64,000 nucleotides of DNA, taken from NCBI RefSeq assembly GCF_013426915.1, contig NZ_AP023180.1:2542001-2606000 (forward strand). Reading direction: 5' to 3'. The DNA comes from Paraburkholderia sp. PGU19. GTDB lineage: Bacteria; Pseudomonadota; Gammaproteobacteria; Burkholderiales; Burkholderiaceae. The notes below the pieces were generated by a model. The model worked only from the letters and a program-made list of their open reading frames with translations. It searched no databases and was not told the origin of the DNA. The position numbers and the translations under genes were made by a program. Positions within the stretch are counted from its first letter, which is position 1, and each line of letters begins with the position of its first letter. Positions 36,332 through 61,334 of the stretch are shown in pieces.

Positions 36332-36506
36332 TGGTTGTGCGGGCAGTCTGTCTGTTGTCTGAGCGAAGCCGACATCTGAATGTCGACCTAAGCCGGGTCG
36401 AAGGACTGGTTCTGGCCGATAACCAATTCGAGACCGCGCTGCAGAGCGGTCGTTGAGATCCTCAGTGGCTGCTCATCCGGTCGCGACTACCCCTCCACAA
36501 ACAAGA

Positions 36507-36539
36507 AGGCCCGCCAGCGGGGAACGGACTGGCGGGCCT
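36507..36539 (-). terminator. Terminator of peptide array 1
   Basis: On the minus strand an 11-bp stem, AGGCCCGCCAG / CTGGCGGGCCT with an 11-base loop, is followed by TCTTGTTTG. It lies about 170 bases after the last precursor gene of the array. An identical copy is at 39380-39412. Confidence 0.8.
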
Positions 36540-36708
36540 GAAGCCGGCAAGGGACAAGACCTGACGGCATTCCTCTCAGAACGAGCTTCTAGAGCACATC
36601 TTCTCGCAATGCTTACCCCGTGCTGTGGTGCTGTCTTGAACTGTTCGACGGGGTCTGGCGAACCCGGCAAACGTTGTTATATGGGGACGGCCGTTTCCTG
36701 CCCGGGAC

Positions 36709-36942
36709 TTACAGCAGTCCCTTGAGAAACTGCAGTCCGCCGAAATTCTGCAGCGTCGGCATATCGATCTTCGTGTCGGTCTGGATGACGGGCGCCACCA
36801 CGATAGCCGGGCTGGCAAAACCACCGCCGAACGCCGCGTTCACGTTGCCAAAATTGAAGTTGCTGCCGCCGCGCACGGCCGACAGCGCGTCGTTGGACAG
36901 TGCCTGATGATGCGAAAGATCCGTGATCGTCAGCGAGGCCAT
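36709..36942 (-). CDS. Double-glycine peptide precursor, array 1 gene 6
   Basis: 77 residues, the most divergent member of array 1 and the last one transcribed. Leader MASLTITDLSHHQALSNDAL then SAVRGG; predicted cleavage after Gly26 by the C39 peptidase encoded at 54864. The 51-residue core starts SNFNFGNVNAAFGGGFASPA and ends QNFGGLQFLKGLL. It has no Cys and few charges and is rich in Gly, Asn, Val and Phe. The extra C-terminal FLKGLL distinguishes it. It is preceded by AGGAGCGTTACC. It lies 91 bases after gene 5, a wider gap than elsewhere in the array. A copy with the same protein sequence is at 39582-39815. Confidence 0.85.
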   Translation of the reverse strand: MASLTITDLSHHQALSNDALSAVRGGSNFNFGNVNAAFGGGFASPAIVVAPVIQTDTKIDMPTLQNFGGLQFLKGLL

Positions 36943-37033
36943 GGTAACGCTCCTGGTTTGGCGTGTGGCGGGACGGGAGAGCACGCACTGCCTGCGATCC
37001 GGCAGACGCGGCGCGACTCTCCCGTGTGTGGCT

Positions 37034-37258
37034 TTACTTGACCAGCTGCAGGCCGCCGAAGTTCTGGATCGTCGGGATGATGACCTGCGTGTCGGTCTGG
37101 GTGACGGGCGCCACCACGATCGACGGGCTGGCGAAGCCACCGCCGAATGCGGCATTCGTGTTGTAGGCGTTGTAGTTGCTGCCGCCACGCACGGCGGAGA
37201 GCGCTGCAACGGAAAGTTCTTCGTTATGCGAAAGGTCTTTGATGGTCAGCGAGCTCAT
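37034..37258 (-). CDS. Double-glycine peptide precursor, array 1 gene 5
   Basis: 74 residues. Leader MSSLTIKDLSHNEELSVAAL then SAVRGG; core SNYNAYNTNAAFGGGFASPS and on to VAPVTQTDTQVIIPTIQNFG and GLQLVK. It differs from genes 1-4 at several core positions (NAYNTN, TQVII, LVK end). The ribosome site AGGAG lies seven bases before the ATG. The copy at 39907-40131 encodes the same protein. Confidence 0.87.
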   Translation of the reverse strand: MSSLTIKDLSHNEELSVAALSAVRGGSNYNAYNTNAAFGGGFASPSIVVAPVTQTDTQVIIPTIQNFGGLQLVK

Positions 37259-37307
37259 GATCAATCTCCTGGATACGGTATGGGAAAAAGGGCGATGCGT
37301 TTGCGAT

Positions 37308-37532
37308 TTACAGCACGGCCTGCAGGCCGCCGAAGTTCTGGATCGTCGGGATGACGACCTTCGTGTCGGTCTGGGTGACGGGTGCCACCACCACGCCCGG
37401 GCTGGCGAAGCCGCCACCGAATGCGGCGTTCACGTTACCGACGTTGTAGTTGCTGCCGCCACGCACCGAGGCGAGTGCTTCGACGGAGAGGTCCGCGTTA
37501 TGCGAAAGGTCTTTGATGGTCAGCGAGGCCAT
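37308..37532 (-). CDS. Double-glycine peptide precursor, array 1 gene 4
   Basis: 74 residues. Leader MASLTIKDLSHNADLSVEAL then ASVRGG, core SNYNVGNVNAAFGGGFASPG and on to GLQAVL. The start at 37532 follows CCAGGAGATTGACC; an in-frame TTG two codons upstream is not needed. One leader difference (SVEAL) from the others. It is one unit of the 273-base repeat. Confidence 0.87.
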   Translation of the reverse strand: MASLTIKDLSHNADLSVEALASVRGGSNYNVGNVNAAFGGGFASPGVVVAPVTQTDTKVVIPTIQNFGGLQAVL

Positions 37533-37580
37533 GGTCAATCTCCTGGATAGGGTATGGGAAAAGGGCGATGCGTTTGCGAT

Positions 37581-37805
37581 TTACAGCACGGCCTGCAGGC
37601 CGCCGAAGTTCTGGTTCGTCGGGATGACGACCTTCGTGTCGGTCTGCGTGACGGGTGCCACCACAATGCCCGGGCTGGCGAAGCCGCCACCGAATGCGGC
37701 GTTCGTGTTGCCGACGTTGTAGTTGCTGCCGCCACGCACCGAGGCGAGTGCTGCGACGGAGAGGTCTTCGTTACGCGAAAGGTCTTTGATGGTCAGCGAG
37801 GCCAT
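37581..37805 (-). CDS. Double-glycine peptide precursor, array 1 gene 3
   Basis: 74 residues. Leader MASLTIKDLSRNEDLSVAAL then ASVRGG (Arg replaces the usual His at position 11). The core carries two changes from its neighbours: NVGNTNAAF and KVVIPTNQNFG. The small changes in otherwise identical units suggest the copies are kept similar by recombination while single substitutions accumulate. Strong AGGAG ribosome site. Confidence 0.87.
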   Translation of the reverse strand: MASLTIKDLSRNEDLSVAALASVRGGSNYNVGNTNAAFGGGFASPGIVVAPVTQTDTKVVIPTNQNFGGLQAVL

Positions 37806-37853
37806 GGTCAATCTCCTGGATAGGGTGTGGTAAGAGGACGATGTGTTTGCGAT

Positions 37854-38078
37854 TTACAGCACAGCCTGCAGGCCGCCGAAGTTCTGGATCGTCGGGATGA
37901 CGACCTTCGTGTCGGTCTGGGTGACGGGTGCCACCACCACGCCCGGGCTGGCGAAGCCGCCACCGAATGCGGCGTTCACGTTGCCCACGTTGTAGTTGCT
38001 GCCGCCACGCACTGAAGCAAGTGCTGCGACGGAGAGGTCTGCGTTATGCGAAAGGTCTTTGATGGTCAGCGAGCTCAT
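37854..38078 (-). CDS. Double-glycine peptide precursor, array 1 gene 2
   Basis: 74 residues. Leader MSSLTIKDLSHNADLSVAAL then ASVRGG, core SNYNVGNVNAAFGGGFASPG and on to KVVIPTIQNFGGLQAVL. The protein matches the promoter-proximal gene of array 2 (40181-40405) except at residue 2. Gap of 48 bases to gene 1 with the same CCAGGAGATTGACC leader. Confidence 0.87.
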   Translation of the reverse strand: MSSLTIKDLSHNADLSVAALASVRGGSNYNVGNVNAAFGGGFASPGVVVAPVTQTDTKVVIPTIQNFGGLQAVL

Positions 38079-38126
38079 GGTCAATCTCCTGGATAGGGTG
38101 TGGTAAGAGGACGATGTGTTTGCGAT

Positions 38127-38351
38127 TTACAGCACAGCCTGCACGCCGCCGAAGTTCTGGATCGTCGGGATGACGACCTTCGTGTCGGTCTGGGTGACGG
38201 GCGCCACCACAATGCCCGGGCTGGCGAAGCCGCCACCGAATGCGGCGTTCACGTTGCCGACGTTGTAGTTGCTGCCGCCACGCACTGAAGCGAGCGCTGC
38301 GACGGAAAGGTCTTCGTTATGCGAAAGGTCTTTGATGGTCAGCGAGGCCAT
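38127..38351 (-). CDS. Double-glycine peptide precursor, array 1 gene 1
   Basis: 74 residues, the promoter-proximal gene. Leader MASLTIKDLSHNEDLSVAAL then ASVRGG, core SNYNVGNVNAAFGGGFASPG, ending QNFGGVQAVL. The ATG follows CCAAGGAGATTGACC. The 5' untranslated region from the predicted sigma-54 start near 38408 is about 57 bases. Function as an exported peptide is inferred from the leader and from the C39 transporter in the same region. No cysteine and no similarity I know to characterised bacteriocins. Confidence 0.87.
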   Translation of the reverse strand: MASLTIKDLSHNEDLSVAALASVRGGSNYNVGNVNAAFGGGFASPGIVVAPVTQTDTKVVIPTIQNFGGVQAVL

Positions 38352-38419
38352 GGTCAATCTCCTTGGATCAGTTGTTTCGGGTTGGAAGAGCACGATTTGT
38401 TTGCGCTCGCTGCTACATA

Positions 38420-38436
38420 CGCATAGGGTGTGCCAG
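38420..38436 (-). promoter_or_regulatory. Sigma-54 promoter of peptide array 1
   Basis: On the minus strand CTGGCACACCCTATGCG. GG and GC are in the required -24/-12 register and the -24 box (CTGGCAC) is perfect. It sits about 70 bases before the first precursor start. It nearly matches the element at 47746-47762, and an identical one is at 40474-40490. Confidence 0.85.
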
Positions 38437-39581: not shown

Positions 39582-39815
39582 TTACAGCAGTCCCTTGAGA
39601 AACTGCAGTCCGCCGAAATTCTGCAGCGTCGGCATATCGATCTTCGTGTCGGTCTGGATGACGGGCGCCACCACGATAGCCGGGCTGGCAAAACCACCGC
39701 CGAACGCCGCGTTCACGTTGCCAAAATTGAAGTTGCTGCCGCCGCGCACGGCCGACAGCGCGTCGTTGGACAGTGCCTGATGATGCGAAAGATCCGTGAT
39801 CGTCAGCGAGGCCAT
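39582..39815 (-). CDS. Double-glycine peptide precursor, array 2 gene 3
   Basis: 77 residues, same protein as array 1 gene 6 (36709-36942): leader MASLTITDLSHHQALSNDAL then SAVRGG, core SNFNFGNVNAAFGGGFASPA, ending QFLKGLL. The identity extends into the 91-base gap before it, so the duplication is recent or is homogenised by gene conversion. Confidence 0.85.
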   Translation of the reverse strand: MASLTITDLSHHQALSNDALSAVRGGSNFNFGNVNAAFGGGFASPAIVVAPVIQTDTKIDMPTLQNFGGLQFLKGLL

Positions 39816-39906
39816 GGTAACGCTCCTGGTTTGGCGTGTGGCGGGACGGGAGAGCATGCACTGCCTGCTATCCGGCAGACGCGGCGCGACTCTCCCGTGT
39901 GTGGCT

Positions 39907-40131
39907 TTACTTGACCAGCTGCAGGCCGCCGAAGTTCTGGATCGTCGGGATGATGACCTGCGTGTCGGTCTGTGTGACGGGCGCCACCACGATGGACGGG
40001 CTGGCGAAGCCACCGCCGAATGCGGCATTCGTGTTGTAGGCGTTGTAGTTGCTGCCGCCGCGCACGGCGGAGAGCGCCGCAACGGAAAGTTCTTCGTTAT
40101 GCGAAAGGTCTTTGATGGTCAGCGAGCTCAT
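39907..40131 (-). CDS. Double-glycine peptide precursor, array 2 gene 2
   Basis: 74 residues, same protein as array 1 gene 5: leader MSSLTIKDLSHNEELSVAAL then SAVRGG, core SNYNAYNTNAAFGGGFASPS, ending GGLQLVK. Only silent differences from the copy at 37034-37258 were noticed. AGGAG seven bases before the ATG. Confidence 0.87.
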   Translation of the reverse strand: MSSLTIKDLSHNEELSVAALSAVRGGSNYNAYNTNAAFGGGFASPSIVVAPVTQTDTQVIIPTIQNFGGLQLVK

Positions 40132-40180
40132 GATCAATCTCCTGGATACGGTGTGGGAAAAAGTGCGATGCGTTTGCGAC

Positions 40181-40405
40181 TTACAGCACAGCCTGCAGGC
40201 CGCCGAAGTTCTGGATCGTCGGGATGACGACCTTCGTGTCGGTCTGGGTGACGGGTGCCACCACCACGCCCGGGCTGGCGAAGCCGCCACCGAATGCGGC
40301 GTTCACGTTGCCCACGTTGTAGTTGCTGCCGCCACGCACTGAAGCAAGTGCTGCGACGGAGAGGTCTGCGTTATGCGAAAGGTCTTTGATGGTCAGCGAG
40401 GCCAT
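40181..40405 (-). CDS. Double-glycine peptide precursor, array 2 gene 1
   Basis: 74 residues, promoter-proximal gene of array 2: leader MASLTIKDLSHNADLSVAAL then ASVRGG, core SNYNVGNVNAAFGGGFASPG, ending GGLQAVL. Its 3' part matches unit 2 of array 1, while its 5' region and upstream sequence match gene 1 of array 1. It is therefore the crossover product expected from loss of repeat units. Confidence 0.87.
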   Translation of the reverse strand: MASLTIKDLSHNADLSVAALASVRGGSNYNVGNVNAAFGGGFASPGVVVAPVTQTDTKVVIPTIQNFGGLQAVL

Positions 40406-40473: not shown

Positions 40474-40490
40474 CGCATAGGGTGTGCCAG
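40474..40490 (-). promoter_or_regulatory. Sigma-54 promoter of peptide array 2
   Basis: Minus strand CTGGCACACCCTATGCG, identical to the array 1 element, about 70 bases before the first precursor start of array 2. Confidence 0.85.
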
Positions 40491-41294: not shown

Positions 41295-41519
41295 CTATTT
41301 GCGCAACAGACTCTGCGGCGGTATGCGTTCGTCGACAGGTTGGCGCGCGGCCGTCGGGAATCCCACGGGATAGTCGACGACGCGCGTCGCCGCCGGCAGC
41401 GCCTGCGCGGTGACGCCGAAGAAGCGCCCTCCCGTTCGCGCCCCGCCGACGATCGCGGTCATCGCCGCGCGATCGAGTTGGACGCTTTCGGGGAGATCCT
41501 TGATGACGAGCTTGGACAT
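41295..41519 (-). CDS. Double-glycine peptide precursor with an Arg/Pro-rich core
   Basis: 74 residues. Leader MSKLVIKDLPESVQLDRAAM then TAIVGG is the same leader family as the arrays and the precursors at 47845 and 60067. The 48-residue core starts ARTGGRFFGVTAQALPAATR and continues VVDYPVGFPTAARQPVDERI; it is basic and unrelated to the array cores. A weak GGAA precedes the ATG. No convincing sigma-54 element was found within about 180 bases upstream, so regulation may differ. A cargo of the C39 exporter by leader similarity. Confidence 0.75.
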   Translation of the reverse strand: MSKLVIKDLPESVQLDRAAMTAIVGGARTGGRFFGVTAQALPAATRVVDYPVGFPTAARQPVDERIPPQSLLRK

Positions 41520-41954: not shown

Positions 41955-42300
41955 GACCGCTCTCCTAAGAGGGAAGCGAAGATCGCTAAAAGGGTGTTTC
42001 GGCTTGGGTTCGAGCATCTTGTTTGCCCAGGCCTAACTACGTATGGGCTGTGCCCGCCGTGCAGACGCAGCGGTGAAAAAACGCTCGGGCCTTTACGTAC
42101 AGGGCTTCGCGCCAAATGGAGTGAGCGACGAGACACTGTCGGGCCGGACCGGGCGGCCAGGAACCACAGATCGCCCGACGTCTCGCGGGCCAATCCTGGT
42201 TTGCGAAAGGCATACGTGCGGGCTACTATCGAACGAGCACATGTAATTGGTTACGACAGGGAAATCCTTAGACCTTCGGGAGCTGCAGCGCTTTGAACAC
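41955..42300. other. Intergenic before the kinase gene
   Basis: About 345 bases holding the decayed promoter region of the broken precursor and the presumed promoter of the kinase. No gene supported. Confidence 0.4.
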
Positions 42301-44433
42301 ATGGCTAGCCTTGCGCACGTGATTCGGGATTTTCAGAGCGGCGCGCTTACGCAGGACGCGTTCGTCGCTCAACTCGACAGCACGCTCACAACGGAAGGCG
42401 TCGGTTCGGCTCGTCTGCTCGAAATACTCGGCGAAGCGCACATCAGGAAGCCGCTGCCTCCTGCCCTCTACGCGGAAGTGCGCCGCCGCATCGAACAGAT
42501 GCCCGTTTCGAACCTTGCCGCGGCGGGCGGCGAGGAAACGCGCATGCAAACGGTGGCCGAGCCCCCACCCGTGCCGCCGCCGCCCGCGCGTAGCAGCGAC
42601 GCAGGCGCATCCGGACTCGATCAGGTGAAGGGTACGGGCGACACGCTGAACAACCGCTTCGTGCTCGAAGAGTGTCTTGGCGTAGGCGGCATGGGCACCG
42701 TCTACAAGGCGCTCGATATGCGCAAGCTCGAAGCGTCGGACCGCAAGCCATATCTCGCGATCAAGGTGCTGAACACGCAGTTCCGCGGCAACCCGAAGTC
42801 GCTGATCGCGTTGCAGCGCGAAGCGCGCAAGGCGCAGGTACTCGCGCACCGCAATATCGTCACCGTCTACGATTTCGACCGCGATGGCGCCATCGTCTAT
42901 CTGACGATGGAGTATCTCTCCGGCAAGCCGCTCAGCCAGATTCTGCGCACGCAGGATTTCAAAGGCATGCCCGTTCAGTCCGCGTTGCCGATCGTGCGCG
43001 GCATGTCGAGCGCGCTGGCGTACGCACATGAGCGCGGCTTCGTGCATTGCGACTTCAAGCCCGCCAACGTGTTTCTGACCGATACGGGCGAAGTCAAGGT
43101 GATCGACTTCGGCATCGCGCGCGTCTTTCAGCGCCCCGAAGAAGAAAGCGACGCGACCGTGTTCGATCCCGGCAGCCTCGGCGCATTGACGCCCGCCTAT
43201 GCAAGCCCGGAGATGCTCGAACATCTCGAACCCGATCCACGCGACGACATCTACGCGCTAGGCTGCATCACGTACGAGCTATTGACGGGCCGTCATCCGT
43301 TCGACCGTCAGTCGGCCACCCAGGCGCGCGCATCGAACCGGCAACCGCAGCGGCCCGAGAACCTGAGCAACCGTCAATGGCGCGCATTGCGTGCGACGCT
43401 CGCCTTCGACCGCAAGTCGCGCACGCCGACTGTGTCGCGCTTCGTCGAAGAGTTCGGCGCGCAGGAGCGCGCGTCGGCGTCGAAGTCGCAAGGGAGCAAT
43501 ATTGATCGCACCGGCATGCTGATGAAGTCGGGTGTTGCGGGACTCGCGCTCGCTTGCGCGGCAGGCGGCGCGCTGTACTTCTATCGTGCTTCGCGGACGC
43601 TGGAGCAGGAAAATGCGGCGCTACAGGTGAGCCCGGCGTCCGAGGCGGGCAGCGCGCGGCCTTTGGCCAGCGCCGCCTCGCCCGTTCTGCCCATCACGCC
43701 TGCTACTCCGTCGGCGCCTGCCGTTGCCTCCGCGCCGTCAGCGCCCGTCACGCCGGCCCCGCCGACGCTCGCCGCCGTCACCTCGGCGCTCGCGACGTTG
43801 CCGTGCTCGGCGATTGCCGCTTCGATTCAGGATCGCGCGGTACAGGTGCGCGGATTCGTGCCGCAACACGGCGAGGCGCAGGTCAACGAGCGACTTTCAA
43901 CATTGCCTGGCGTGGCGTCGACCAAGGTCGACGTGCAGCACGTGAGCAGCGACAAATGTGAGGTGCTGAAGGAACTCGGTTCTTACTGGACGCGCAACTG
44001 GCAGGCGGGGCATATCGCGTCGCTGACGGCGCGCATGCCGAACGGGGTGCTGACGGAAGGCGATCCTCTCGTCGTCGACGTGCGGACGCCCGGCTACGAC
44101 TCCTATGTGAACATCGACTACTACGTGCTCGACGGCAGCGTCGTGCACATGGTCCCGGGGCCGCGTGCGAAAGATAACCAGGCGCCCGCGCACTACTCGG
44201 CGACCATCGGCAGCGGCGGCGACTGGGTCGTCTCGAAGCCGTTCGGTCAGGAGCTGGTCGTTCTGCTGATCACGCCCGCGCCGCTCTTCGATACACCGCG
44301 GCCCGAAAGCGAATCGCGCGCAGACTATCTGCGCGCGCTCGATACGCGGCTCAAGCAGCTTGCCGCGAAATATGGGCAAGACCATATCGTCGCGGACTTC
44401 GCTCAGATCACGAGCAAGGCGCGCGCGCATTGA
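42301..44433 (+). CDS. Membrane Ser/Thr protein kinase with DUF4384 domain
   Basis: 710 residues from the ATG at 42301 (a TTG at 42247 is also in frame; neither has a clear ribosome site). The Hanks-type kinase domain spans about 120-385: ATP loop LGVGGMGTVYK, Lys155 in AIKVL, catalytic HCDFKPANVFL (Cys replaces the usual Arg of HRD), metal-binding DFGIAR, activation segment end YASPEML. One membrane helix follows (about 407-428). The periplasmic part has an Ala/Pro linker, a BON-like piece (VQVRGFVPQHGEAQVNERLS) and a DUF4384-type domain. The non-RD catalytic loop is notable. It probably phosphorylates components of the peptide exporter such as the FHA protein. Confidence 0.88.
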   Translation: MASLAHVIRDFQSGALTQDAFVAQLDSTLTTEGVGSARLLEILGEAHIRKPLPPALYAEVRRRIEQMPVSNLAAAGGEETRMQTVAEPPPVPPPPARSSDAGASGLDQVKGTGDTLNNRFVLEECLGVGGMGTVYKALDMRKLEASDRKPYLAIKVLNTQFRGNPKSLIALQREARKAQVLAHRNIVTVYDFDRDGAIVYLTMEYLSGKPLSQILRTQDFKGMPVQSALPIVRGMSSALAYAHERGFVHCDFKPANVFLTDTGEVKVIDFGIARVFQRPEEESDATVFDPGSLGALTPAYASPEMLEHLEPDPRDDIYALGCITYELLTGRHPFDRQSATQARASNRQPQRPENLSNRQWRALRATLAFDRKSRTPTVSRFVEEFGAQERASASKSQGSNIDRTGMLMKSGVAGLALACAAGGALYFYRASRTLEQENAALQVSPASEAGSARPLASAASPVLPITPATPSAPAVASAPSAPVTPAPPTLAAVTSALATLPCSAIAASIQDRAVQVRGFVPQHGEAQVNERLSTLPGVASTKVDVQHVSSDKCEVLKELGSYWTRNWQAGHIASLTARMPNGVLTEGDPLVVDVRTPGYDSYVNIDYYVLDGSVVHMVPGPRAKDNQAPAHYSATIGSGGDWVVSKPFGQELVVLLITPAPLFDTPRPESESRADYLRALDTRLKQLAAKYGQDHIVADFAQITSKARAH

Positions 44434-46620: not shown

Positions 46621-47046
46621 ATGCAAAGAAGAATAAGGCTCGCGGCTATTGGCGCGCTCTTTCTGGCTTCCGCGCAGGTGTTCGCTGGACCGACGCCTGC
46701 GCCGCCCGGCGCCGAGGTCTACATCATCTGGCCGGCGGACGGCACCGTGATCACAGGCGGCAAGCTCTGGGTGCGAATGGGCTTGCGCAACATGGGCGTC
46801 TGCCCTAAAGGCGTCAATGTTCCGAACACAGGGCATCACCATCTGCTGATCGACACGGACCTGCCGTCGATGGATCAGGAAATTCCCTCTGACCGGAATC
46901 ACCTGCATTTTGGCGCAGGCGAAACGGATGCGCGCATCGAGCTGCCGCCCGGCAAGCACACGCTGCAACTGCTGCTCGGCGACTACAACCACGTGCCGCA
47001 CAATCCGCCCGTCTATTCGAAGAAGATCACCATCATCGTGAAGTGA
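46621..47046 (+). CDS. Exported DUF4399 protein, copy 1
   Basis: 141 residues. The signal peptide (LAAIGALFLASAQVFA) is followed by a compact beta-rich domain with GPTPAPPGAEVYIIWPADGT, PNTGHHHLLIDTDLPSMDQE and LHFGAGETDARIELPPGKHT, the His-rich DUF4399 signature. The His cluster (GHHHLLID) suggests metal binding, which is an inference. ATG preceded by GGGAGAATGCGCA. A paralogue follows at 47115 with only a short gap, so the two form a pair. Confidence 0.85.
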   Translation: MQRRIRLAAIGALFLASAQVFAGPTPAPPGAEVYIIWPADGTVITGGKLWVRMGLRNMGVCPKGVNVPNTGHHHLLIDTDLPSMDQEIPSDRNHLHFGAGETDARIELPPGKHTLQLLLGDYNHVPHNPPVYSKKITIIVK

Positions 47047-47114
47047 GCACGCGCGAGCGTTGCGCCGGCGCAAGGGCGCACCAGACGCACGACGCAAGAC
47101 GGAGAGCATCAGCC

Positions 47115-47552
47115 ATGATCAGGATCGTTGTTGCCGCTGCGGCACTTGCCGCCCTCACCGCCCTCACTTCGATGAACGTGGCATTCGCCGGGCCGACACC
47201 CGCGCCCAAGGATGCCTATGCGTACATCGGTTATCCGAACGACGGACAGGTCGTACCCGCCAACAAGCCGTTTCGCGTGTGGTTCGGCTTGCGCTACATG
47301 GGCGTCGCGCCCAAGGGCGTGAAGTATCCGAACACGGGGCATCATCATCTGCTGATCGACACCGACTTGCCTCCAGCGGATCAGGAGATTCCTTCCGACC
47401 GCCAGCACCTGCATTTCGGCGCGGGCGAAACGGAAACGATGGTCACCTTGCCGCCCGGCAAGCACACGCTCCAGTTGCTGATGGGCGACGAGAATCATAT
47501 TCCGCACAATCCGCCCGTCTACTCGAAGAAGATCACGGTGATCGCGAAGTGA
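47115..47552 (+). CDS. Exported DUF4399 protein, copy 2
   Basis: 145 residues, a clear paralogue of copy 1: signal peptide AALAALTALTSMNVAFA, then GPTPAPKDAYAYIGYPNDGQ, YPNTGHHHLLIDTDLPPADQ and FGAGETETMVTLPPGKHTLQ. Start chosen at 47115, where the signal peptide begins (GGAG 12 bases upstream); the frame is open from 47043. Both copies sit between the kinase/caspase genes and a peptide precursor, suggesting an envelope accessory role in the system. Confidence 0.85.
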   Translation: MIRIVVAAAALAALTALTSMNVAFAGPTPAPKDAYAYIGYPNDGQVVPANKPFRVWFGLRYMGVAPKGVKYPNTGHHHLLIDTDLPPADQEIPSDRQHLHFGAGETETMVTLPPGKHTLQLLMGDENHIPHNPPVYSKKITVIAK

Positions 47553-54076: not shown

Positions 54077-54829
54077 ATGACCGCGATCGTACGAATCGAT
54101 GATGAAGTCGTGGATGTCGGCGAATTCATACGTCTACTGAAACTCACAGGCCAGTTCGAAAGCCTGATCGAACAGATGGTGCGCGACAAGCTGACCGTGC
54201 ACGCCGCGAAGAAGCACGGCGTGACGGTGAGCGCCGACGAGATACAGGAGCGCGCCGACCAGTTCCGGCGGGTGCGCGGGCTGCATCGCGCCGCAGACAT
54301 GAACCAGTATCTCGACACACTGAAGGTCGGTCTCGACGAGTTCGAGACGTTTATCACCGACAGCCTGTATCAGGAAAAGATGCTCGACAAGGTGGGCAGC
54401 GAAGGCGAGATCGAAGAGTACTTTTCGCTGAATTCGCCGAAGTTCGATGCCATCGAGGTCAGCCACATTCTGCTCGACGACGAAGGCAAGGCGAAGGAAA
54501 TGATCTCGTATCTGCGCGACGATCCCGATGCGTTCGCGGAAATGGCGCGTGAGCATTCGATTGCCGATACGAAAGACTCGGGCGGCGTGATCGGAAAAGT
54601 ACTGCGCGGGTCGCTGAAGCCCGATATCGAGGCGAAGATCTTCAACGCGGCAGTCGGCGATCTGCTCGGGCCGTTCGCGTCGCTGGACCGCTCGTGCTTC
54701 GAGATCTTTGCGGTGACGGCGAAGTATCCGGCACAACTCGACGCGGACGTCGCGTCGGAAATCAAGCGGCTGTTGCGCGAACAGTGGCTGATAACGCGCG
54801 CGCAGGAACATATCATCGAAGCGCTCTGA
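54077..54829 (+). CDS. Parvulin-type peptidyl-prolyl isomerase without signal peptide
   Basis: 250 residues. The N-terminal part is SurA-like chaperone helices (FESLIEQMVRDKLTVHAAKK, GVTVSADEIQERADQFRR). The parvulin domain spans about 130-225 (VSHILLDDEGKAKEMISYLR, REHSIADTKDSGGVIGKVLR, LLGPFASLDRSCFEIFAV). There is no signal peptide or membrane helix, so it should be cytoplasmic, unlike most SurA/PpiC proteins. Position between hlyD and the ABC transporter suggests that it keeps precursor peptides or exporter parts in an export-competent form. ATG preceded by GAGGAGCGGACGAG. Confidence 0.87.
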   Translation: MTAIVRIDDEVVDVGEFIRLLKLTGQFESLIEQMVRDKLTVHAAKKHGVTVSADEIQERADQFRRVRGLHRAADMNQYLDTLKVGLDEFETFITDSLYQEKMLDKVGSEGEIEEYFSLNSPKFDAIEVSHILLDDEGKAKEMISYLRDDPDAFAEMAREHSIADTKDSGGVIGKVLRGSLKPDIEAKIFNAAVGDLLGPFASLDRSCFEIFAVTAKYPAQLDADVASEIKRLLREQWLITRAQEHIIEAL

Positions 54830-54863: not shown

Positions 54864-57800
54864 ATGGATGCACCGCAAACCACGCCTTCCATCGCCGACT
54901 TTCTTTCGACGGTCGAGATTCTGTCGCCGTTTACGCGCGAAGAACTCGAACGTCTCGCGGAGCACGTGCAATCGCGCTTCTATTCGTTTGGTGAGACGGT
55001 GTGCAACGCGGGCGATCCCGCCGATGGGCTCTGCGTGATCAAGTCCGGCTCGGTGCGCATCTTCACCGAAGAGCATGGCAAAGAGATCAGCATGGGCGTG
55101 CGCAAGGCGGGCGAAGTATTCGCCGACATTGCGATGCTGCGCGCGTACGCGCATGAATCGTCGGTACGCTCTTCGGGCAAGACCGAGTTGCTGTTCATTC
55201 CGCGCGCCACCACGGAGCCGATCATTGCCGGCAATCAGGCGGCGCTGGCGTTCGTCGCGAGTTATGTGGCAATCAATTCGGCGGGCGGTTTCGTCGCGCA
55301 GTTGTTCGATTTGCGCGGCAAGCTGAACAAGCAGGAACTCGAAGAATACGTGCGCAGCGTCGGTGTCAAGAAAGTCAGCGCGGGCAAGGAGATTCTCAAG
55401 CAGGACGCGCGCGACGACCGCCGGCTGTATGTCGTGCGGCAAGGCGAAGTGCGCATCGTACGCAATGAGGACGGTACCGACTACACGCTCGCCACGCTGC
55501 GTGAAGGCGAAATTTTCGGCGAGAAAGCCTGCCTGATGCGGCAGGAGCAGACGGCATCGGCCATTGCAACGACGGACACGCGGCTGCTCGTGATACCCGA
55601 GCGTACGGTGCATTTCATCCTCGAGCGCAATCCGAAATTGCGCGAGGTGCTCGACGATCGCATCAAATACGCCGACCGCGAACTCGACCGGCAAAAACGC
55701 ATCGAGCAGCGCCGCAAGCGGCCTCTGAGGCTCGACCTGCATACGAAGCCCGAACTCGGCGAGCGCGTGATCCGGCGCTTCGGACTAGTCGAGCAGGCCG
55801 AGGAAATGGATTGCGGCGCCGCGTGCCTTGCGATGATCTGCAAGCACTACGGCATTCCGATGACACTCGGCAAGCTGCGCGAACTCGCGAACGTCACGAC
55901 GCAGGGCGCGACGCTGGACAGTCTGGCGCGCGCGGGTGAGTCGCTCGGCTTCACGGCGCGCGGCGTGCAGTGCACGTTCGACTCGCTGCGCGGCTTCGAC
56001 CTGCCGTTCATCGTGCACTGGGAAGGCTATCACTACATCATCGTGTACGGCGTGTCGAAAGATCACGTATGGCTCGCCGATCCCGCGCTGGGGTTCCGCA
56101 AGCTGAATCTCGAAGACTTCGAGCGCGGCTGGAGCGGCACGTGCCTGCTGTTTGCGCCGGGGCCGAACCTCGTGCAGCTCTCCGCGTCGCGTTCGCCGTG
56201 GCTGCGTTTCGTCGGCTATCTGACGCCGTACAAAAAGATTCTCATGTACCTGTTCCTCGCGACCTTCGTGATCCAGGTACTGGGTGTGATTCCGCCATTG
56301 ATCATTCAGAACATCCTTGACGGCGTCATCGTGCATCAGAACATCAGTCTGCTGCATCTGCTGATACTCGGTCTGATCATTTCGAATGTGTTCTCGCAGT
56401 TGATGTCGATGGTGCGCGCGTATTTGTCGAACTTCATGGTGCGCAACATGGACTTCGCAATGATGTCGCAGTTCTTCAGGCACACGATGTCGCTGCCGTT
56501 CTCGTTCTTCGCCAAGCGCAAGACAGGCGACATTTTTGCGCGCTTCCAGGAGAACCAGACGATCCGCGCGTTCCTCACCGAATCGACGGTGACGACGGCA
56601 CTCAATCTGCTGATGGTGTTCATCTACTTCGCGATCATGTTCTTCTATAACGCGAAGATGACATTCGTACTGATCGCTTTCGTCATTCCCATCATGGCGC
56701 TCACGCTGATCGCTACGCCGAAGATCAAGAACTATGCGCGCGAATCGTTTGCGGCCGGGACAGATTCGAAATCGTTCCTGATGGAAGCGTTGTCCGGTGT
56801 CGAAACGGTGAAGGGCATGGGCATCGAGCGGCCCGTGCGCCTGCGCTGGGAAAAGAAATACGCCAAGGCACTCGAAGTCCAATACCGCGCACATGCATTC
56901 AATATCGTGATCGGCTTTATCAGCCAGTTGCTGAATGCCGCGACGACGATCGCGATTCTCTGGGTCGGTGCAAATCTCGTGCTCGCCCGCGAAATGACGA
57001 TCGGACAGCTGATCGCGTTCAACGCGTTCATGGGTAGCGTGCTGACGCCGTTGATGGGACTCGTCGGCTTGTGGAGCATGCTCAACGACGCGGGCGTGGC
57101 GATGGAACGTCTGGGCGACGTGCTCGATATCGAACCGGAGCAGAAGCCCCAGGACCTGCCGTCGCGCGTGATGCTGCCCGACCTGCAAGGCGCGATCAGC
57201 CTGAACGGCGTGTACTTCCGCTATGGCGAGGACGAGAGCGCCTATGTGCTGGAGAACATCAGCTTCGACATCAAACCGGGCGAGCTGGTGGCGATTGTCG
57301 GACGCAGCGGTTCGGGCAAGACCACGCTCGCGAAGCTGCTGGTCGGCTTTTATGCGCCGAGCGACGGCAAGATGACCGTTGACGGTTACGACATGAACGT
57401 GATCGACAAGGCATTCTTCCGCGCGCAGATCGGTTATGTGATGCAATCGAATCTCCTGTTTTCCGGCACGATCGCGGAGAACATCGCGAGCGGCGACGAT
57501 ACGCCGGATCGCCGCCGTATCGAAGAAGTGGCCAGGATGGCCGACGCGCACGCGTTCATCGCCAAGCTGCCGCTCGGCTACGAACAGGTGGTCGGCGAGC
57601 GCGGCATCGGGTTGTCGGGCGGGCAGATTCAGCGGCTGTGCATTGCCCGCGCGCTGTATCACGATCCGCGCCTGCTCGTATTCGACGAGGCGACTTCCGC
57701 ACTCGATACGCAATCGGAGAGCAATATTCTCGGCAACATGCAGGAAATCCTCAAGGGACGCACGGCCGTCATCATCGCGCACCGGCTGAGTACGATCATG

Positions 57801-57920
57801 CGCGCCGACAAGATTCTCGTGCTCTATGAAGGCGCGATCGTCGAGCAGGGGCGTCACGAGGAACTGGTCAACCGGAAGGGCATGTACTACCAGCTCGTCC
57901 AGAAACAGTTGAGCGCCTGA
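54864..57920 (+). CDS. C39-peptidase ABC exporter with two cyclic-nucleotide-binding domains
   Basis: 1018 residues. Two cNMP-binding-like beta-barrels come first (about 20-130 and 165-255, with FYSFGETVCNAGDPADGLCV and LATLREGEIFGEKACLMRQE). A C39 peptidase follows (about 305-435) with oxyanion Gln311, catalytic Cys317 in EEMDCGAACLAM, His390 in YHYIIVYG and Asp406 in DPALG. Six membrane helices (about 450-740) and an ATPase end it: Walker A GRSGSGKTT (813-821), signature LSGGQ (917-921), Walker B LLVFDEATSALD. The C39 domain cuts after Gly-Gly of leader peptides during export. The sensor domains suggest gating by a nucleotide or similar ligand. Confidence 0.95.
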   Translation: MDAPQTTPSIADFLSTVEILSPFTREELERLAEHVQSRFYSFGETVCNAGDPADGLCVIKSGSVRIFTEEHGKEISMGVRKAGEVFADIAMLRAYAHESSVRSSGKTELLFIPRATTEPIIAGNQAALAFVASYVAINSAGGFVAQLFDLRGKLNKQELEEYVRSVGVKKVSAGKEILKQDARDDRRLYVVRQGEVRIVRNEDGTDYTLATLREGEIFGEKACLMRQEQTASAIATTDTRLLVIPERTVHFILERNPKLREVLDDRIKYADRELDRQKRIEQRRKRPLRLDLHTKPELGERVIRRFGLVEQAEEMDCGAACLAMICKHYGIPMTLGKLRELANVTTQGATLDSLARAGESLGFTARGVQCTFDSLRGFDLPFIVHWEGYHYIIVYGVSKDHVWLADPALGFRKLNLEDFERGWSGTCLLFAPGPNLVQLSASRSPWLRFVGYLTPYKKILMYLFLATFVIQVLGVIPPLIIQNILDGVIVHQNISLLHLLILGLIISNVFSQLMSMVRAYLSNFMVRNMDFAMMSQFFRHTMSLPFSFFAKRKTGDIFARFQENQTIRAFLTESTVTTALNLLMVFIYFAIMFFYNAKMTFVLIAFVIPIMALTLIATPKIKNYARESFAAGTDSKSFLMEALSGVETVKGMGIERPVRLRWEKKYAKALEVQYRAHAFNIVIGFISQLLNAATTIAILWVGANLVLAREMTIGQLIAFNAFMGSVLTPLMGLVGLWSMLNDAGVAMERLGDVLDIEPEQKPQDLPSRVMLPDLQGAISLNGVYFRYGEDESAYVLENISFDIKPGELVAIVGRSGSGKTTLAKLLVGFYAPSDGKMTVDGYDMNVIDKAFFRAQIGYVMQSNLLFSGTIAENIASGDDTPDRRRIEEVARMADAHAFIAKLPLGYEQVVGERGIGLSGGQIQRLCIARALYHDPRLLVFDEATSALDTQSESNILGNMQEILKGRTAVIIAHRLSTIMRADKILVLYEGAIVEQGRHEELVNRKGMYYQLVQKQLSA

Positions 57921-59269
57921 TGAAAATACTTGACCAGCAACCTGACGAAGCCGGCTCCGCCATCTCTTACGCGGGGTTGATCGAGAAGATCGAAATCCTG
58001 CGCTCGACGCTGCGCTGGTCGTCGCGGCTCGAACGCGCGGATATCGAAAAACTCCTGAAACAGGCAAGTTCATTGCGCGACGAAGTGATGCAGATGTCGC
58101 ACAAGGAGCGCTTCGTGCAGGCGGCCGTGGTCGAGCCGATGCGCGGCGACCTGTCGCGCGGCGCGCGGCGGCAGGCGTTGCTCGCGCGAAGCTTCATTTT
58201 CGAGGGCACCTTCGGCGATAACCCGAAACTGCTGGAATCGCTCGAAATCGCGGAGAAAGCGGCGCCGACCGATCTGCCCGTTCTGATCGACGGCGAAAGC
58301 GGCACGGGCAAGGAGCTGATGGCGAAGGTCATCCATGCGAACGGCAGCCGCTCGGACAAGCCGTTCATCTCCGTGAACTGCGGTGCGATCCCCGACAACC
58401 TGCTGGAGTCGGAACTGTTCGGTCACAGAAAAGGCGCCTTCACGGGCGCGACAAATGACCGTAAAGGCAAATTCGAAAGCGCCCATACGGGGACGATCTT
58501 TCTCGATGAAATCGGCGAATTGCCTTTGACGGGGCAGGTAAAACTGCTGCGCGTGCTGGAGGCGCATGAAATACAGCGTGTGGGTTCGGACGAGCCGATC
58601 GGCGTCGATACGCGGATCGTCGCCGCGACCAACCGCAACCTGCGCAAGCTGAGCGAGCAGGGCACGTTCCGTGAAGATCTCTTTTACCGGCTGAGCGTCA
58701 TTCACGTGACCTTACCGCCGCTGCGCGAAAGGCGCGATGAAATTCCGCTTCTGATCCAGTACTTCGGCGACGAGGCGGCGGGCGCGCTCAAGCGCCGTCC
58801 CGTGAGAATCACCCCTAAATTGCGGGACTTTCTGCTGACGTATGCGTATCCGGGCAATATCCGCGAATTGCGCAACGTGATGTACCGCATCTCATGCCTG
58901 GCGGGCGACATCGCGGATGTAGATCATTTGCCGGTGGATATGCGGCCCACGGCACCCGTTTCGACGTCGATATTCGGCGTGGCGAACGAGGCCGCGAACG
59001 GCACGACGAGCGTGACCAATCTGTTGTCGCTCAGCGATGCGAAGCGCGCCGCCAGCGACGAAGCCGAAAAGGCGTTCTTGCAACGCGGCTTGCAGGAAGT
59101 GGGCGGCACGGTCGCCGAACTGGCGCGCCGCGTCGACATGAACCGGTCGCATCTTCAGATGTTGCTGAAGAAGCACGGACTGCATTCGAAGGACTTTCGC
59201 CGTGCACATGCGCAAGCGAATGCGCGCAAGGACGATACGGAAGAGGACGACGAAGCCGAGATGCATTGA
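57920..59269 (+). CDS. Sigma-54-dependent transcriptional activator
   Basis: 449 residues. The N-terminal segment (1-95) is a helical region of no known sensor family, without a receiver domain. The AAA+ core has Walker A GESGTGKE (125-132), the sigma-54 contact loop GAFTGA (172-177), Walker B GTIFLDEIGE and the Arg-finger region FREDLFYRLSVI. A Fis-type HTH lies near 405-425 (GGTVAELARRVDMNRSHLQM), and the C-terminus is acidic (DDTEEDDEAEMH). Its start overlaps the transporter stop by one base, so it is co-translated. It is the obvious activator of the -24/-12 promoters in this cluster. Confidence 0.94.
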   Translation: MKILDQQPDEAGSAISYAGLIEKIEILRSTLRWSSRLERADIEKLLKQASSLRDEVMQMSHKERFVQAAVVEPMRGDLSRGARRQALLARSFIFEGTFGDNPKLLESLEIAEKAAPTDLPVLIDGESGTGKELMAKVIHANGSRSDKPFISVNCGAIPDNLLESELFGHRKGAFTGATNDRKGKFESAHTGTIFLDEIGELPLTGQVKLLRVLEAHEIQRVGSDEPIGVDTRIVAATNRNLRKLSEQGTFREDLFYRLSVIHVTLPPLRERRDEIPLLIQYFGDEAAGALKRRPVRITPKLRDFLLTYAYPGNIRELRNVMYRISCLAGDIADVDHLPVDMRPTAPVSTSIFGVANEAANGTTSVTNLLSLSDAKRAASDEAEKAFLQRGLQEVGGTVAELARRVDMNRSHLQMLLKKHGLHSKDFRRAHAQANARKDDTEEDDEAEMH

Positions 59270-59290
59270 AGCAAGGGCTACGGGATTTTG

Positions 59291-60061
59291 TCAGGGCGAC
59301 GGGTTCAACAAGGTCTTGTCGGTTGCTTGCGGGTCCTCTGCCTGCACGACCACCGCCGTGATGTTGTCGCGGCCGCCGCGCGAGAGCGCGATATCGACGA
59401 GTTCATCGGGCGCATGCAGACAATCCACGCTCGCGAGCGTCTGCTGGATTTCTTCGTCGGTCAGTTCATTGCTGAGGCCGTCGCTGCACAACAGGAACAC
59501 GTCGCCGTCCGCGACTTCAATTGCGTCTTCGTCGAGTTCGAGTTGATCCGTTGCACCGACCGCACGCGTGATGATGTTGTGCGCGGGATGATGGCGGGCC
59601 TCTTCTTCCGTCAGATAACCGGACTGCCGAAGCGCTTCCACCTGGCTGTGGTCACGCGTCAACTGTCGCAATTGCCCTTGCCGCAGCAGATAAATGCGGC
59701 TGTCGCCCGCCCATAGATAGCCGCAGAAACGGTCGCACGCAAGCAGCACGACGACGGTCGTGCCGATGCGCTGCACCTGCCTGCGGCTCGCTTCGTCGCG
59801 CAACTGGCGGTTCGCATCCTGCAGACGCGTGCGCGCCTCGGCGATGCAATGCTTGATACCCGCCTGTTCCGGCAACTGGCCGAGCGTTTCGACCACGAGC
59901 TGGCTCGCGAGATCGCCGACGTCGTGCCCGCCCATGCCGTCGGCCACGGCCCAGCGGCCGCGCTGCGGTTGATCGAGACAGGCGTCCTCATTGATCTCGC
60001 GCACCCGGCCCGTGTCGGTGCGCGCCGCCGACGCCCACCGGAATTGACTGGTACAGGCCAC
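59291..60061 (-). CDS. PP2C-type protein phosphatase
   Basis: 256 residues from GTG 60061. PPM/PP2C motifs: TDTGRVREINEDA (first metal Asp region), AVADGMGGHDVGDLASQLVV, WAGDSRIYLLRQGQLRQLTR, FLLCSDGLSNELTDEEIQQT and SRGGRDNITAVVVQ. No membrane segment, so cytoplasmic. It would remove phosphate placed by the membrane kinase at 42301. It starts 5 bases after the stop of the peptide precursor at 60067, in the same direction, so it is probably expressed from the same sigma-54 promoter. Confidence 0.94.
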   Translation of the reverse strand: MACTSQFRWASAARTDTGRVREINEDACLDQPQRGRWAVADGMGGHDVGDLASQLVVETLGQLPEQAGIKHCIAEARTRLQDANRQLRDEASRRQVQRIGTTVVVLLACDRFCGYLWAGDSRIYLLRQGQLRQLTRDHSQVEALRQSGYLTEEEARHHPAHNIITRAVGATDQLELDEDAIEVADGDVFLLCSDGLSNELTDEEIQQTLASVDCLHAPDELVDIALSRGGRDNITAVVVQAEDPQATDKTLLNPSP

Positions 60062-60066
60062 GGCAT

Positions 60067-60351
60067 CTAAGCCCGGTTCGTACTGCGCGCGTCAGGAGAA
60101 ACGTTGATGTTCGAGTTGTTGCCCGTGTTGTTCACATCGACCGTCTGGAACTGATTGATCATCTGGTTAGCATAGAAGTTGTTCGTGACGTCGTACAGGT
60201 TTACGACGGGGCCGACGCTCGGTGTGTCGTGCACATACGGCGTGATCCAGCCGAATACCCACGGTGCACCGCCGCCGCCGCTGATCGCGGACATCGCCTT
60301 GCGATCGAGAGCGAGGTTGTGCGAAAGATCGCTGATGGTGATGGAAGCCAT
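60067..60351 (-). CDS. Double-glycine peptide precursor with an Asn-rich core
   Basis: 94 residues. Leader MASITISDLSHNLALDRKAM then SAISGG. The 68-residue core starts GGAPWVFGWITPYVHDTPSV and ends FQTVDVNNTGNNSNINVSPD then ARSTNRA. It is Asn-rich and Cys-free. The leader matches the array peptides at DLSHN and the GG site, while the core is unrelated. The ATG follows GGAGACACGCC. It shares an apparent transcript with the PP2C gene. Confidence 0.83.
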   Translation of the reverse strand: MASITISDLSHNLALDRKAMSAISGGGGAPWVFGWITPYVHDTPSVGPVVNLYDVTNNFYANQMINQFQTVDVNNTGNNSNINVSPDARSTNRA

Positions 60352-60416
60352 GGCGTGTCTCCAGAATGGCCGCCTGTCTCGCGCGGCCGGAAGTCAATGG
60401 AAGTTGCGACATGACG

Positions 60417-60433
60417 TGCAAGGGCTGTGCCAA
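60417..60433 (-). promoter_or_regulatory. Sigma-54 promoter of the precursor-PP2C unit
   Basis: Minus strand TTGGCACAGCCCTTGCA, a nearly perfect -24/-12 element about 65 bases before the precursor start at 60351. Shares TTGGCACAGCC with the element at 47746. Confidence 0.88.
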
Positions 60434-60652
60434 TGTTCGGCGGATCGGTGCGCTTTTTCCTGCGTCCTTGCTGGGCGCGGGATAGAGCGGATACGCGCGT
60501 GCGTGCGTCGCGCGCGAGCGCGTTGGGACGTTGGCGGTGGTCCAACAGCGGGCCGCAGCGAGAGACGGGCCAACCAACACATTTTCGCCGCGTGATGCAC
60601 CGGCGCGCGGAGTGAAAAGTGATGGTGTTCGTGCAACACAATGGCCTGAAAT

Positions 60653-60675
60653 TCTGTTGGGTGTGTCCCTACACA
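60653..60675. promoter_or_regulatory. Dyad between two divergent sigma-54-like promoters
   Basis: CTGTTGGGT-N5-CCCTACACAG resembles the CTGTCGGTT...ACCGAACAG dyads of the arrays. It lies 220 bases from the 60417 promoter and about 60 bases from the 60736 element, so it could serve both. The match is looser than elsewhere. Confidence 0.4.
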
Positions 60676-60735
60676 GGCTCCCGAAAAGTGCTTCGTCTAT
60701 GTGAAATATCGCTATAAATCAATGGCTTATATAGC

Positions 60736-60752
60736 CTGGTCCGAATGATGCG
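60736..60752 (+). promoter_or_regulatory. Possible sigma-54 promoter of the LRAT-like gene
   Basis: CTGGTCCGAATGATGCG: GG and GC are in register and the -12 part ATGCG is the same as in the array promoters, but the -24 box is CTGGTCC rather than CTGGCAC. It lies about 50 bases before the ATG at 60804. Confidence 0.5.
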
Positions 60753-60803
60753 AAAGAGCCAGCAACAGTGTTGGCCCTTTGAATCGGATACCAGAGCAAA
60801 GCC

Positions 60804-61334
60804 ATGAACCGCAACCTCCAACAATCTCGCAATGAACAAGGTGCAAACCGTGCGGCTGCTTACGCATCGGCGGATGTGGTGCTCGACGGTTCCAGCGACG
60901 AACCCGCCCTCGGTGCCCATCTGATCACCCAACGCCGCGGCTACGAACATCACGGCATTTACGTCGGTGGCGGCAAGGTCATTCACTACGCAGGTTTCGC
61001 GAAGTCCGCGCATCGCGGCCCCGTCGAAGAAGTGGCGCTCGAAGCCTTCGCCGACGGTCATGCCGTCGCCGTGCGCCCGCATCCGTTCCCGAAGTACACC
61101 GCCGAACAAACCGTGCTGCGCGCCCGTTCGCGCCTCGGCGAAAACCACTATCGCCTGCTGACGAACAACTGCGAGCACTTCTGCGCGTGGTGCCTGCTCG
61201 GCGAAAGCCGCAGCGAACAGGTCCATGCATGCCTTACGCATCCGCGCACCGGCATGCACGCGCTGCTGTGCCTCGCCAGCGCTTTTGTCGGTAACCGGAT
61301 GAAAATCGGCCGCTCCGTTGTTAACGCAGTATGA
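60804..61334 (+). CDS. LRAT/NlpC-P60-like (NC domain) protein
   Basis: 176 residues with the lecithin-retinol-acyltransferase fold: His in YEHHGIYVGGGKVIHYAGF and catalytic Cys in LLTNNCEHFCAWCLLGE, spaced as in bacterial LRAT-like proteins. No signal peptide. Such enzymes are thiol acyltransferases or hydrolases. Placed divergently from the peptide-PP2C unit with a sigma-54-like promoter, it may modify lipid or peptide partners of the system, which is inference. Its stop overlaps an ATG at 61331. Confidence 0.85.
   Translation: MNRNLQQSRNEQGANRAAAYASADVVLDGSSDEPALGAHLITQRRGYEHHGIYVGGGKVIHYAGFAKSAHRGPVEEVALEAFADGHAVAVRPHPFPKYTAEQTVLRARSRLGENHYRLLTNNCEHFCAWCLLGESRSEQVHACLTHPRTGMHALLCLASAFVGNRMKIGRSVVNAV

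Follow-up and report, generated by a model that had tools for sequence, protein, structure and literature searches.

A double-glycine peptide exporter locus of Paraburkholderia sp. PGU19 with sigma-54-type sites before its cargo genes and a candidate phosphothreonine latch

We analysed a 64,000-nucleotide stretch of DNA of Paraburkholderia sp. PGU19 (NZ_AP023180.1, positions 2,542,001 to 2,606,000; hereafter the window), which is part of the second contig of an 11.2-Mb genome. It carries a locus in which a C39 ATP-binding cassette (ABC) exporter with two cNMP domains is accompanied by precursors of double-glycine (GG) leader peptides, a sigma-54 activator, a Ser/Thr kinase, a double-FHA scaffold and a PP2C phosphatase. 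Judged from the sequences, it is probable, though far from certain, that this is an exporter with two locks: transcription of the peptides would depend on sigma-54, and their export would be licensed once the scaffold is phosphorylated. What appears to be new here is an invariant linker block of the scaffold with Thr288, which resembles the self-binding phosphothreonine tails of GarA, OdhI and DgcB.

Conservation of the gene set around cNMP-C39 exporters

The domains of the window proteins were assigned by Pfam/NCBIfam: C39, two cNMP stretches, ABC, HlyD, NodT-type OEP, PPIC, two FHA stretches, Pkinase, PP2C and Sigma54_activat were found, as a preliminary description of the sequence had listed them. 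The exporter resembles the peptidase-containing ABC transporters (PCATs) in that C39 (PF03412) with its catalytic cysteine is fused to ABC_membrane and ABC_tran, and in that GG-leader precursors are linked to it: 12 in the window, and 189 open reading frames (ORFs) in 77 of 81 sources, namely the window and 80 related loci. These loci are the best 80 of 256 found by an exporter scan of named genome contigs; they belong to Paraburkholderia, Caballeronia, Cupriavidus, Noviherbaspirillum, Herbaspirillum, Aromatoleum and relatives, and up to 10 kb was examined on each side, less at contig ends. Cys317 of the exporter lies within a DCG motif that is present in all 80 rows from these loci. Profiles found the activator in 80, the parvulin in 79, PP2C in 75, HlyD in 73, FHA in 72 and the outer-membrane factor (OMF) in 71 of the 80, followed by DUF4399 (66), LRAT (64) and the caspase part (60). 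The recurring order, with exceptions, is OMF-FHA-HlyD-parvulin-ABC-activator with PP2C convergent; the Noviherbaspirillum and Herbaspirillum loci retain the parvulin, ABC and activator genes without OMF, FHA and HlyD.

The kinase gene lies outside the flank in most loci and within it in 2 of the 80. An ortholog was found at E ≤ 1e-60 in each of the 35 whole genomes searched, which were drawn from 36 of the 80 loci. Of 150 genomes drawn evenly from the window's family, taken to be the Burkholderiaceae, 41 have the cNMP-C39 exporter part and 41 the kinase ortholog, and a script comparison showed that these two sets are identical. Neither was found in the remaining 109 genomes (20 of them are named per search, and these are the same 20 for exporter and kinase). 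Among the 41 pairs, 28 lie within 21 kb, 5 lie farther apart on the same contig, and 8 lie on different contigs. The co-occurrence test that the preliminary description had proposed was strongly positive: the kinase, FHA, PP2C, parvulin and activator genes co-occur with the cNMP-C39 exporter in related genomes. The precursor leader, which it had proposed to look for beside such transporters, was found beside close exporters (77 of 81, window included) and not beside the intermediate (0 of 2) and distant ones (0 of 12) described below.

In wider draws at E ≤ 1e-30, exporters of the cNMP-C39 type turned up in 3 of 399 genomes at the level of the order, in 8 of 274 for the class and in 10 of 398 for the phylum; the window's genome is in each count, two others of the ten repeat the order draw, and the best few candidates per genome were scored. 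The INTERMEDIATE relatives L138 and L139 (62-68% identical over the cNMP-C39 part) retain the activator, parvulin, HlyD, FHA and OMF. Twelve distant loci are 29-38% identical over this part, several of them on short contigs, and they carry HlyD in 12, FHA in 10, parvulin in 8, the activator in 6, PP2C in 1 and a kinase in 1. As a control, twenty C39-ABC loci without cNMP were hand-picked from the higher-scoring matches in the same order; here the counts were HlyD 19, FHA 0, parvulin 0, activator 0, PP2C 1 and kinase 1. The contrast for FHA, 10 of 12 versus 0 of 20, means that the gene-set association belongs to the cNMP-C39 subfamily and not to C39 exporters at large, in a comparison whose controls come from other families of the order, whose profiles were built on close loci and whose distant set includes fragmented assemblies. 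Other neighbours were also seen in the distant loci: L133 and L136 have three OEP-type proteins in succession and L134 has two, a ShlB/POTRA protein is present in L134 and L137, and a LapD-like HAMP-GGDEF-EAL protein in L134, hinting at other cargo. In L151 (7404-8900), a cNMP-like N-terminal part, recognized by eye, is joined to a kinase domain just 5′ of HlyD.

Cargo peptides and their sigma-54-type sites

A leader pattern search returned 13 ORFs in the window, of which 12 were accepted, so that the twelve GG precursors with one leader family given in the preliminary description were confirmed; the thirteenth (60669-61013) was judged a chance match. As a control, 20 first-order Markov sequences of window length gave 6 matches in total and at most 2 each. 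Nine of the twelve precursors stand in two tandem arrays and three are single, and the leaders have in common I-x-D-L, a leucine, an A-[LM] pair and GG. A profile made of these twelve sequences matched 16 places genome-wide. Twelve are the precursors themselves, at E ≤ 3.1e-15 as follows from the construction; two, at E 2.5e-5 and 0.003, read as orphan leader peptides with proline-rich cores and lie far from the exporter locus, in L091 (about 3378-3461) and L092 (about 3183-3263) on genome contigs C1 and C2; and two are weak matches (E 0.05-0.07), each with an internal stop. The genome has one exporter matching over the full length, and a second, shorter C39 match lies on C1. Because one full-length exporter goes with leader peptides away from the locus, a single exporter may serve scattered cargo genes.

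The 189 precursor ORFs were sorted by pattern into families A-E, a crude sorting in which the window's 41298 precursor and five A-like peptides of Cupriavidus fell into B. Family A comprises 68 precursors, one per source, in 68 of the 81 sources, and family B comprises 97 by the crude pattern; family C, that of the window arrays, was found elsewhere only in L054. The median core length by family is 40-69 residues, and cysteine occurs in 14 of the 189 cores. For Paraburkholderia/Caballeronia pairs, which are not independent and whose B cores align poorly, the median dN/dS was 0.17 for A leaders, 0.25 for A cores, 0.38 for B leaders and 0.71 for B cores. We take family A to be conserved, functional and probably exported, whereas families B and C seem to change faster, and for family A a conserved surface or signalling role fits better than that of a toxin. 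The database holds 923 relatives of family A, and among the 120 listed the names given are "hypothetical" or "uncharacterized", with no Pfam domain shown. An AlphaFold2 model of precursor A from 43 sequences (mean pLDDT 46.8) gave no readable fold. The N/Q-rich cores had raised an amyloid or curlin idea, but a Pfam scan of six precursors lent it no support, and it is not claimed.

The precursor array is partly duplicated. The segments 36476-36775 and 39349-39648 are 97% identical over 300 bp, mostly non-coding, at a spacing of 2873 bp, and nine 300-bp units altogether lie in the array region 36693-40455. ORF fragments at about 34967-35272 and 38819-39300 resemble integrase remnants by eye, so that a mobile element may have been involved in the expansion of the array. 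The short ORF at 41796-42017 on the minus strand looks by eye like a precursor B core without a leader, perhaps a decayed copy. At about 15601 on the minus strand of L072, a precursor with a 10-of-10 sigma-54 site leaves the family frame inside the leader and is likely broken. A wider profile of 144 leaders, run on L060, L068, L071, L072 and the two intermediate and twelve distant loci, found only this broken copy.

Sites of the type TGGCAC-N5-TTGC were scored 5′ of 188 of the 189 precursors, the remaining one having too little upstream DNA. First or single precursor genes have a site matching at least 9 of 10 positions in 123 of 145 cases and at least 8 in 143 of 145; a 9-position site was found for 1 of 43 inner genes of tandem runs. 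As background, sites occurred in 49 of 5000 random windows and in 32 of 1880 Markov sequences. The distance to the start codon is 51-112 bp for all 123 sites, which lie 5′ of it, and their −12 element is TTGC in 55 and ATGC in 51. In the window, each tandem array has a single site, at its head; a fifth first gene (41519) has no sigma-54-type site.

The machinery genes gave a different result. A site of at least 8 of 10 positions was not found in the window before any of five genes, namely those for the OMF, FHA, kinase and caspase-FGE proteins and the first DUF4399 protein. Across the 80 loci, the regions upstream of the OMF, FHA, HlyD, parvulin, ABC, activator, PP2C and DUF4399 genes had 0 to 1 sites of 9-10 positions per gene of 66-80, about background; the kinase upstream region was examined in the window. 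Sigma-54 control of the exporter operon is thus not supported, and the "matching promoters" of the preliminary description stand for the cargo genes but not for this operon. Since the sites stand before the cargo and the machinery is at background, sigma-54 would command the cargo supply and the machine would be expressed otherwise; in other words, sigma-54 would mark the cargo and not the exporter. From synteny, we infer that the locus activator acts at the cargo sites. The LRAT gene is an exception among the neighbours: 44 of 50 upstream regions have a site of at least 8 positions (background about 9%), mostly TGGCCC-N5-ATGC. This conserved element is sigma-54-like but weaker; many loci (e.g., L014, L033 and L039) have it some 58 bp 5′ of the LRAT start, and it scores 7/10 in the window. 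The main texts of two P. phymatum rpoN papers (PMC5979394, PMC5748707) contain none of the terms sought.

The FHA scaffold and its candidate latch

The scaffold was aligned in 75 proteins: that of the window and those from 74 of the 82 loci searched. In FHA1, the retained residues are Gly44-Arg45, Ser62, His65 (74 of 75), Asn84 and Asn89, and FHA2 keeps Ser181, His184 and Asn203. The linker behind them is conserved very unevenly: the mean top-residue fraction is 0.30 at 243-283, 0.91 at 284-304 and 0.55 at 305-357. The conserved block 284-304, D-x-DKTTFVGAAHSFLDIFCVD, contains D-K-T-T-F-V-G with Thr288. Invariant in all 75 are Thr288, Phe290, Ser296, Phe297, Leu298, Ile300 and Phe301, and position 291, at +3 of Thr288, is always Val or Ile. 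At the start of the linker, Thr247 and Thr249 are nearly invariant (0.99 and 0.97).

In the AlphaFold2 model (mean pLDDT 80.2, pTM 0.48), the two FHA domains are followed by a disordered stretch at 243-293, a helix at 356-392 with a hydrophobic segment at 359-377, and an almost all-helical domain at 396-844. A structure search with the FHA1 model placed GarA and OdhI on top, with other FHA chains within 1 Z. For the helical part, no solved chain stood out and there was a weak TPR-like match only (2y4u/3ieg, E about 0.02); a second search was dominated by FHA chains and barely tests this part. Two features of GarA/OdhI-type proteins are found here: an FHA fold with phosphothreonine-binding residues, and a conserved Thr with a hydrophobic +3 residue in a disordered linker.

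An acidic-Thr-hydrophobic pattern, written after both sites had been seen, occurs in 2 of the 12 locus proteins tested: in the scaffold linker (D-K-T-T-F-V) and in the activation loop of the kinase (D-A-T304-V-F-D). Thr304, Phe306 and Asp307 of this loop are present in all 31 kinases compared, from 30 of the 35 genomes and the window. In the scaffolds of the distant loci, a tail Thr and a linker Thr with like surroundings are invariant in the 8 proteins aligned, while the sequence elsewhere is variable; ten distant FHA proteins had been found, and L133 (double-FHA type) and L135 (cut by a contig end) were left out. With ten database proteins added, taken from 19 after three near-copies and six remote ones had been set aside, the linker Thr is present in at least 90%, and the tail Thr is absent in two (P0012, P0013).

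The positions of the features are collected in Table 1. In the kinase, a weakly hydrophobic segment was noticed by eye around residue 430, and the end of the protein is DUF4384-like. Rfam gave no match in the window at gathering scores, and a tRNA search was also negative. A defence-system reading was rejected, as PADLOC matched only generic kinase, caspase, ABC, cNMP, AAA and PP2C domains and had no match for FHA, the parvulin, LRAT or the two precursors submitted.

Table 1. Features of the locus (positions in the window)
Feature	Position	Strand	Basis
Tandem array 1, 6 GG-leader precursors (family C, cores SNYN/SNFN...)	36709..38351	-	leader pattern search
Members of array 1	36709-36942, 37034-37258, 37308-37532, 37581-37805, 37854-38078, 38127-38351	-	
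Sigma-54-type site TGGCAC-N5-ATGC, head of array 1	38421..38435	-	9/10 positions
Array 2, 3 precursors, partial duplicate of array 1	39582..40405 (39582-39815, 39907-40131, 40181-40405)	-	
Sigma-54-type site, head of array 2	40475..40489	-	9/10 positions
Single precursor, basic core, no sigma-54 site detected	41295..41519	-	leader pattern, site scoring
Ser/Thr protein kinase, activation loop D-A-T304-V-F-D	42247..44433	+	Pfam; orthologs; loop conservation
Caspase + FGE-sulfatase-like protein	44461..46371	-	domain scan; related loci
DUF4399 protein 1	46621..47046	+	ORF list, domain scan, related loci
DUF4399 protein 2 (ORF as listed; real start may be further in)	47043..47552	+	ORF list, domain scan
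Sigma-54-type site of precursor B	47747..47761	+	9/10 positions
Precursor B, single, 5′ of exporter operon	47845..48108	+	leader pattern
NodT-type OMF	48369..49799	+	TIGR01845 above cut-off
Membrane scaffold: FHA1, FHA2, disordered linker, predicted transmembrane segment, alpha-helical C-terminal domain	50063..52633	+	Pfam, alignment, AlphaFold2
Scaffold linker DKT288TFVG	50918-50938	+	alignment
HlyD adaptor; listed ORF overlaps FHA gene	52593..53984	+	Pfam
Parvulin-type peptidyl-prolyl isomerase	54077..54829	+	Pfam
Exporter: 2 x cNMP, C39 peptidase (Cys317), ABC	54864..57920	+	Pfam; related loci
Sigma-54 activator, no Pfam-recognised sensor domain	57920..59269	+	Pfam/NCBIfam
PP2C phosphatase	59291..60061	-	Pfam
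Precursor A, best conserved cargo	60067..60351	-	leader pattern, conservation
Sigma-54-type site of precursor A	60418..60432	-	10/10 positions
LRAT/NC-domain protein	60804..61334	+	Pfam; 64/80 related loci

Proposed mechanism, other explanations and known systems

Based on these data, the following order of events is proposed. Sigma-54 would transcribe the cargo genes, a step that the sites support. On a signal, the kinase would then phosphorylate Thr288 of the scaffold linker. Phosphorylated Thr288, with its Val/Ile at +3, would be captured by an FHA domain, either within that scaffold or on an adjacent one, and this would rearrange the scaffold and license the exporter. The large alpha-helical domain of the scaffold is predicted to be periplasmic, beside HlyD and the OMF; PP2C would reset the latch, and the cNMP domains may add a nucleotide input, for which HetC and ppGpp are a precedent. 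By analogy with its family, C39 would cut after GG, and the peptides would leave via HlyD and the OMF, with the parvulin assisting, as unmodified chains of about 40-70 residues; in the locus proteins scanned, Pfam/NCBIfam recognised no enzyme for peptide modification. That the kinase/FHA/PP2C triad gates the exporter, as the preliminary description has it, remains an inference, which a concrete candidate switch (Thr288, Thr304) now supports.

Several observations weigh against this proposal. OMF, FHA or HlyD is not in the examined stretch in seven to nine of the 80 loci, and in 13 of the 41 genomes the kinase is farther off (5) or on another contig (8). FHA2 has no Gly-Arg, the tail Thr is absent in 2 of 18 distant FHA proteins, and the pattern shared by linker and kinase loop was composed with both sites in view. 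Only synteny connects the sigma-54-type sites with the activator. Beside the 12 distant exporters, the kinase and PP2C occur once each, so that the full triad is not general there; the lone kinase lacks the loop motif (by eye), the C39 cysteine is lost in 4 of the 12, and no precursor of the window leader family stands beside these or the 2 intermediate exporters.

Other explanations can be set against these data. The kinase, FHA protein and PP2C might control the sigma-54 activator, and hence cargo transcription, instead of the transport step: the activator has no Pfam-recognised receiver or sensor domain, is present in all 80 loci and needs some switch. However, the FHA gene lies between OMF and HlyD, with the HlyD ORF overlapping it, the scaffold is predicted to span the membrane and to have a large helical domain, and beside distant exporters FHA was found in 10 of 12 stretches and the activator in 6, several stretches ending at contig ends; control of the activator appears unlikely. 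An ordinary class II microcin or bacteriocin system with the phospho-genes as chance neighbours is improbable: GG leaders, a C39 exporter and HlyD do make up the microcin V pattern, and one array consists of near-identical copies, but the kinase and the exporter occur in identical sets of 41 of 150 genomes, family A cores are conserved (median dN/dS 0.25) in 68 of 81 sources, and no immunity-type gene was recognised by Pfam/NCBIfam among the proteins scanned, which cover the small ORFs only partly.

More improbable still is that the GG peptides are accessory and the machine mainly exports a larger cargo, for instance an adhesin, like CLD-type exporters. The lost cysteines and missing leader family of the more remote members would agree with this, as would their neighbours (of the distant members scanned, three stand beside two or three OEP proteins and two beside ShlB-type proteins, one of these also with the LapD-like protein); the close loci, however, have kept the cysteine in every one of 80 rows, and precursors are present in 77 of the 81 sources. 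The two-lock exporter remains the reading that we prefer. A wider generalization is tentative and, to our mind, falls somewhat short of probable: the cNMP-C39 exporters of Pseudomonadota would be an ancient class of phospho-licensed type I machines, each with its own membrane FHA scaffold and an inbuilt phosphothreonine latch of the form acidic-Thr-hydrophobic-hydrophobic. In Burkholderiaceae, this latch would be operated by a kinase and a PP2C dedicated to it, and a large, changing set of exported peptides would be under separate sigma-54 command.

Taken together, the exporter class is a known one, the control layer proposed for it is familiar from other machines, and parallels exist for each piece. 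In type VI secretion, threonine phosphorylation runs through PpkA, PppA and Fha, and the Thr362 site of Fha1 is needed for Hcp secretion in P. aeruginosa, according to the available excerpts (PMC3953482). The locus would work like this pathway but is not one: kinase, PP2C and FHA genes are likewise linked to a secretion machine, whereas the machine here is an OMF-HlyD-C39 ABC type I exporter, and the scaffold is predicted to span the membrane and has its own linker motif. In GarA, OdhI and DgcB, the FHA domain binds the protein's own threonine tail, with a +3 valine in DgcB (excerpts of PMC6733907). The FHA fold, the conserved Thr in a disordered segment and the hydrophobic +3 residue are shared; unlike there, the motif lies in the linker of a membrane scaffold tied to an exporter and is a candidate phosphorylation site. 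Rv1747 of M. tuberculosis is not known to have a C39 peptidase. It is described as a putative ABC exporter with FHA domains, one of which binds a phosphothreonine partner; unlike in our locus, FHA is fused to the ABC protein and a lipid-type cargo has been proposed (excerpts of PMC5549992). HetC, whose cNMP domain binds ppGpp in vitro, has the cNMP-C39-ABC order that Pfam gives for the window exporter, but the available text of its paper mentions neither FHA nor parvulin, and kinase only once in a reference title (PMC10986499). PCATs and class II microcins have in common with the locus a GG-type leader and an ABC exporter whose fused C39 domain carries the catalytic Cys, and the available text on them does not mention FHA or cyclic nucleotides (PMC8277102). 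An Azoarcus paper concerns, in its available part, a different C39-like protein with a poor E-value (PMC3262810). In the open-licence literature searched by title and abstract, with most subscription papers outside it, no description of the full gene set was found among the matches listed.

If the proposal is true, threonine-phosphorylation gating would extend from type VI secretion to a second, far simpler machine, and a C39 exporter with its own kinase would be compact enough to measure the kinase signal, the capture by FHA and the transport in one system. In addition, many peptides without annotation that are probably exported come to light in Paraburkholderia, Caballeronia and Cupriavidus.

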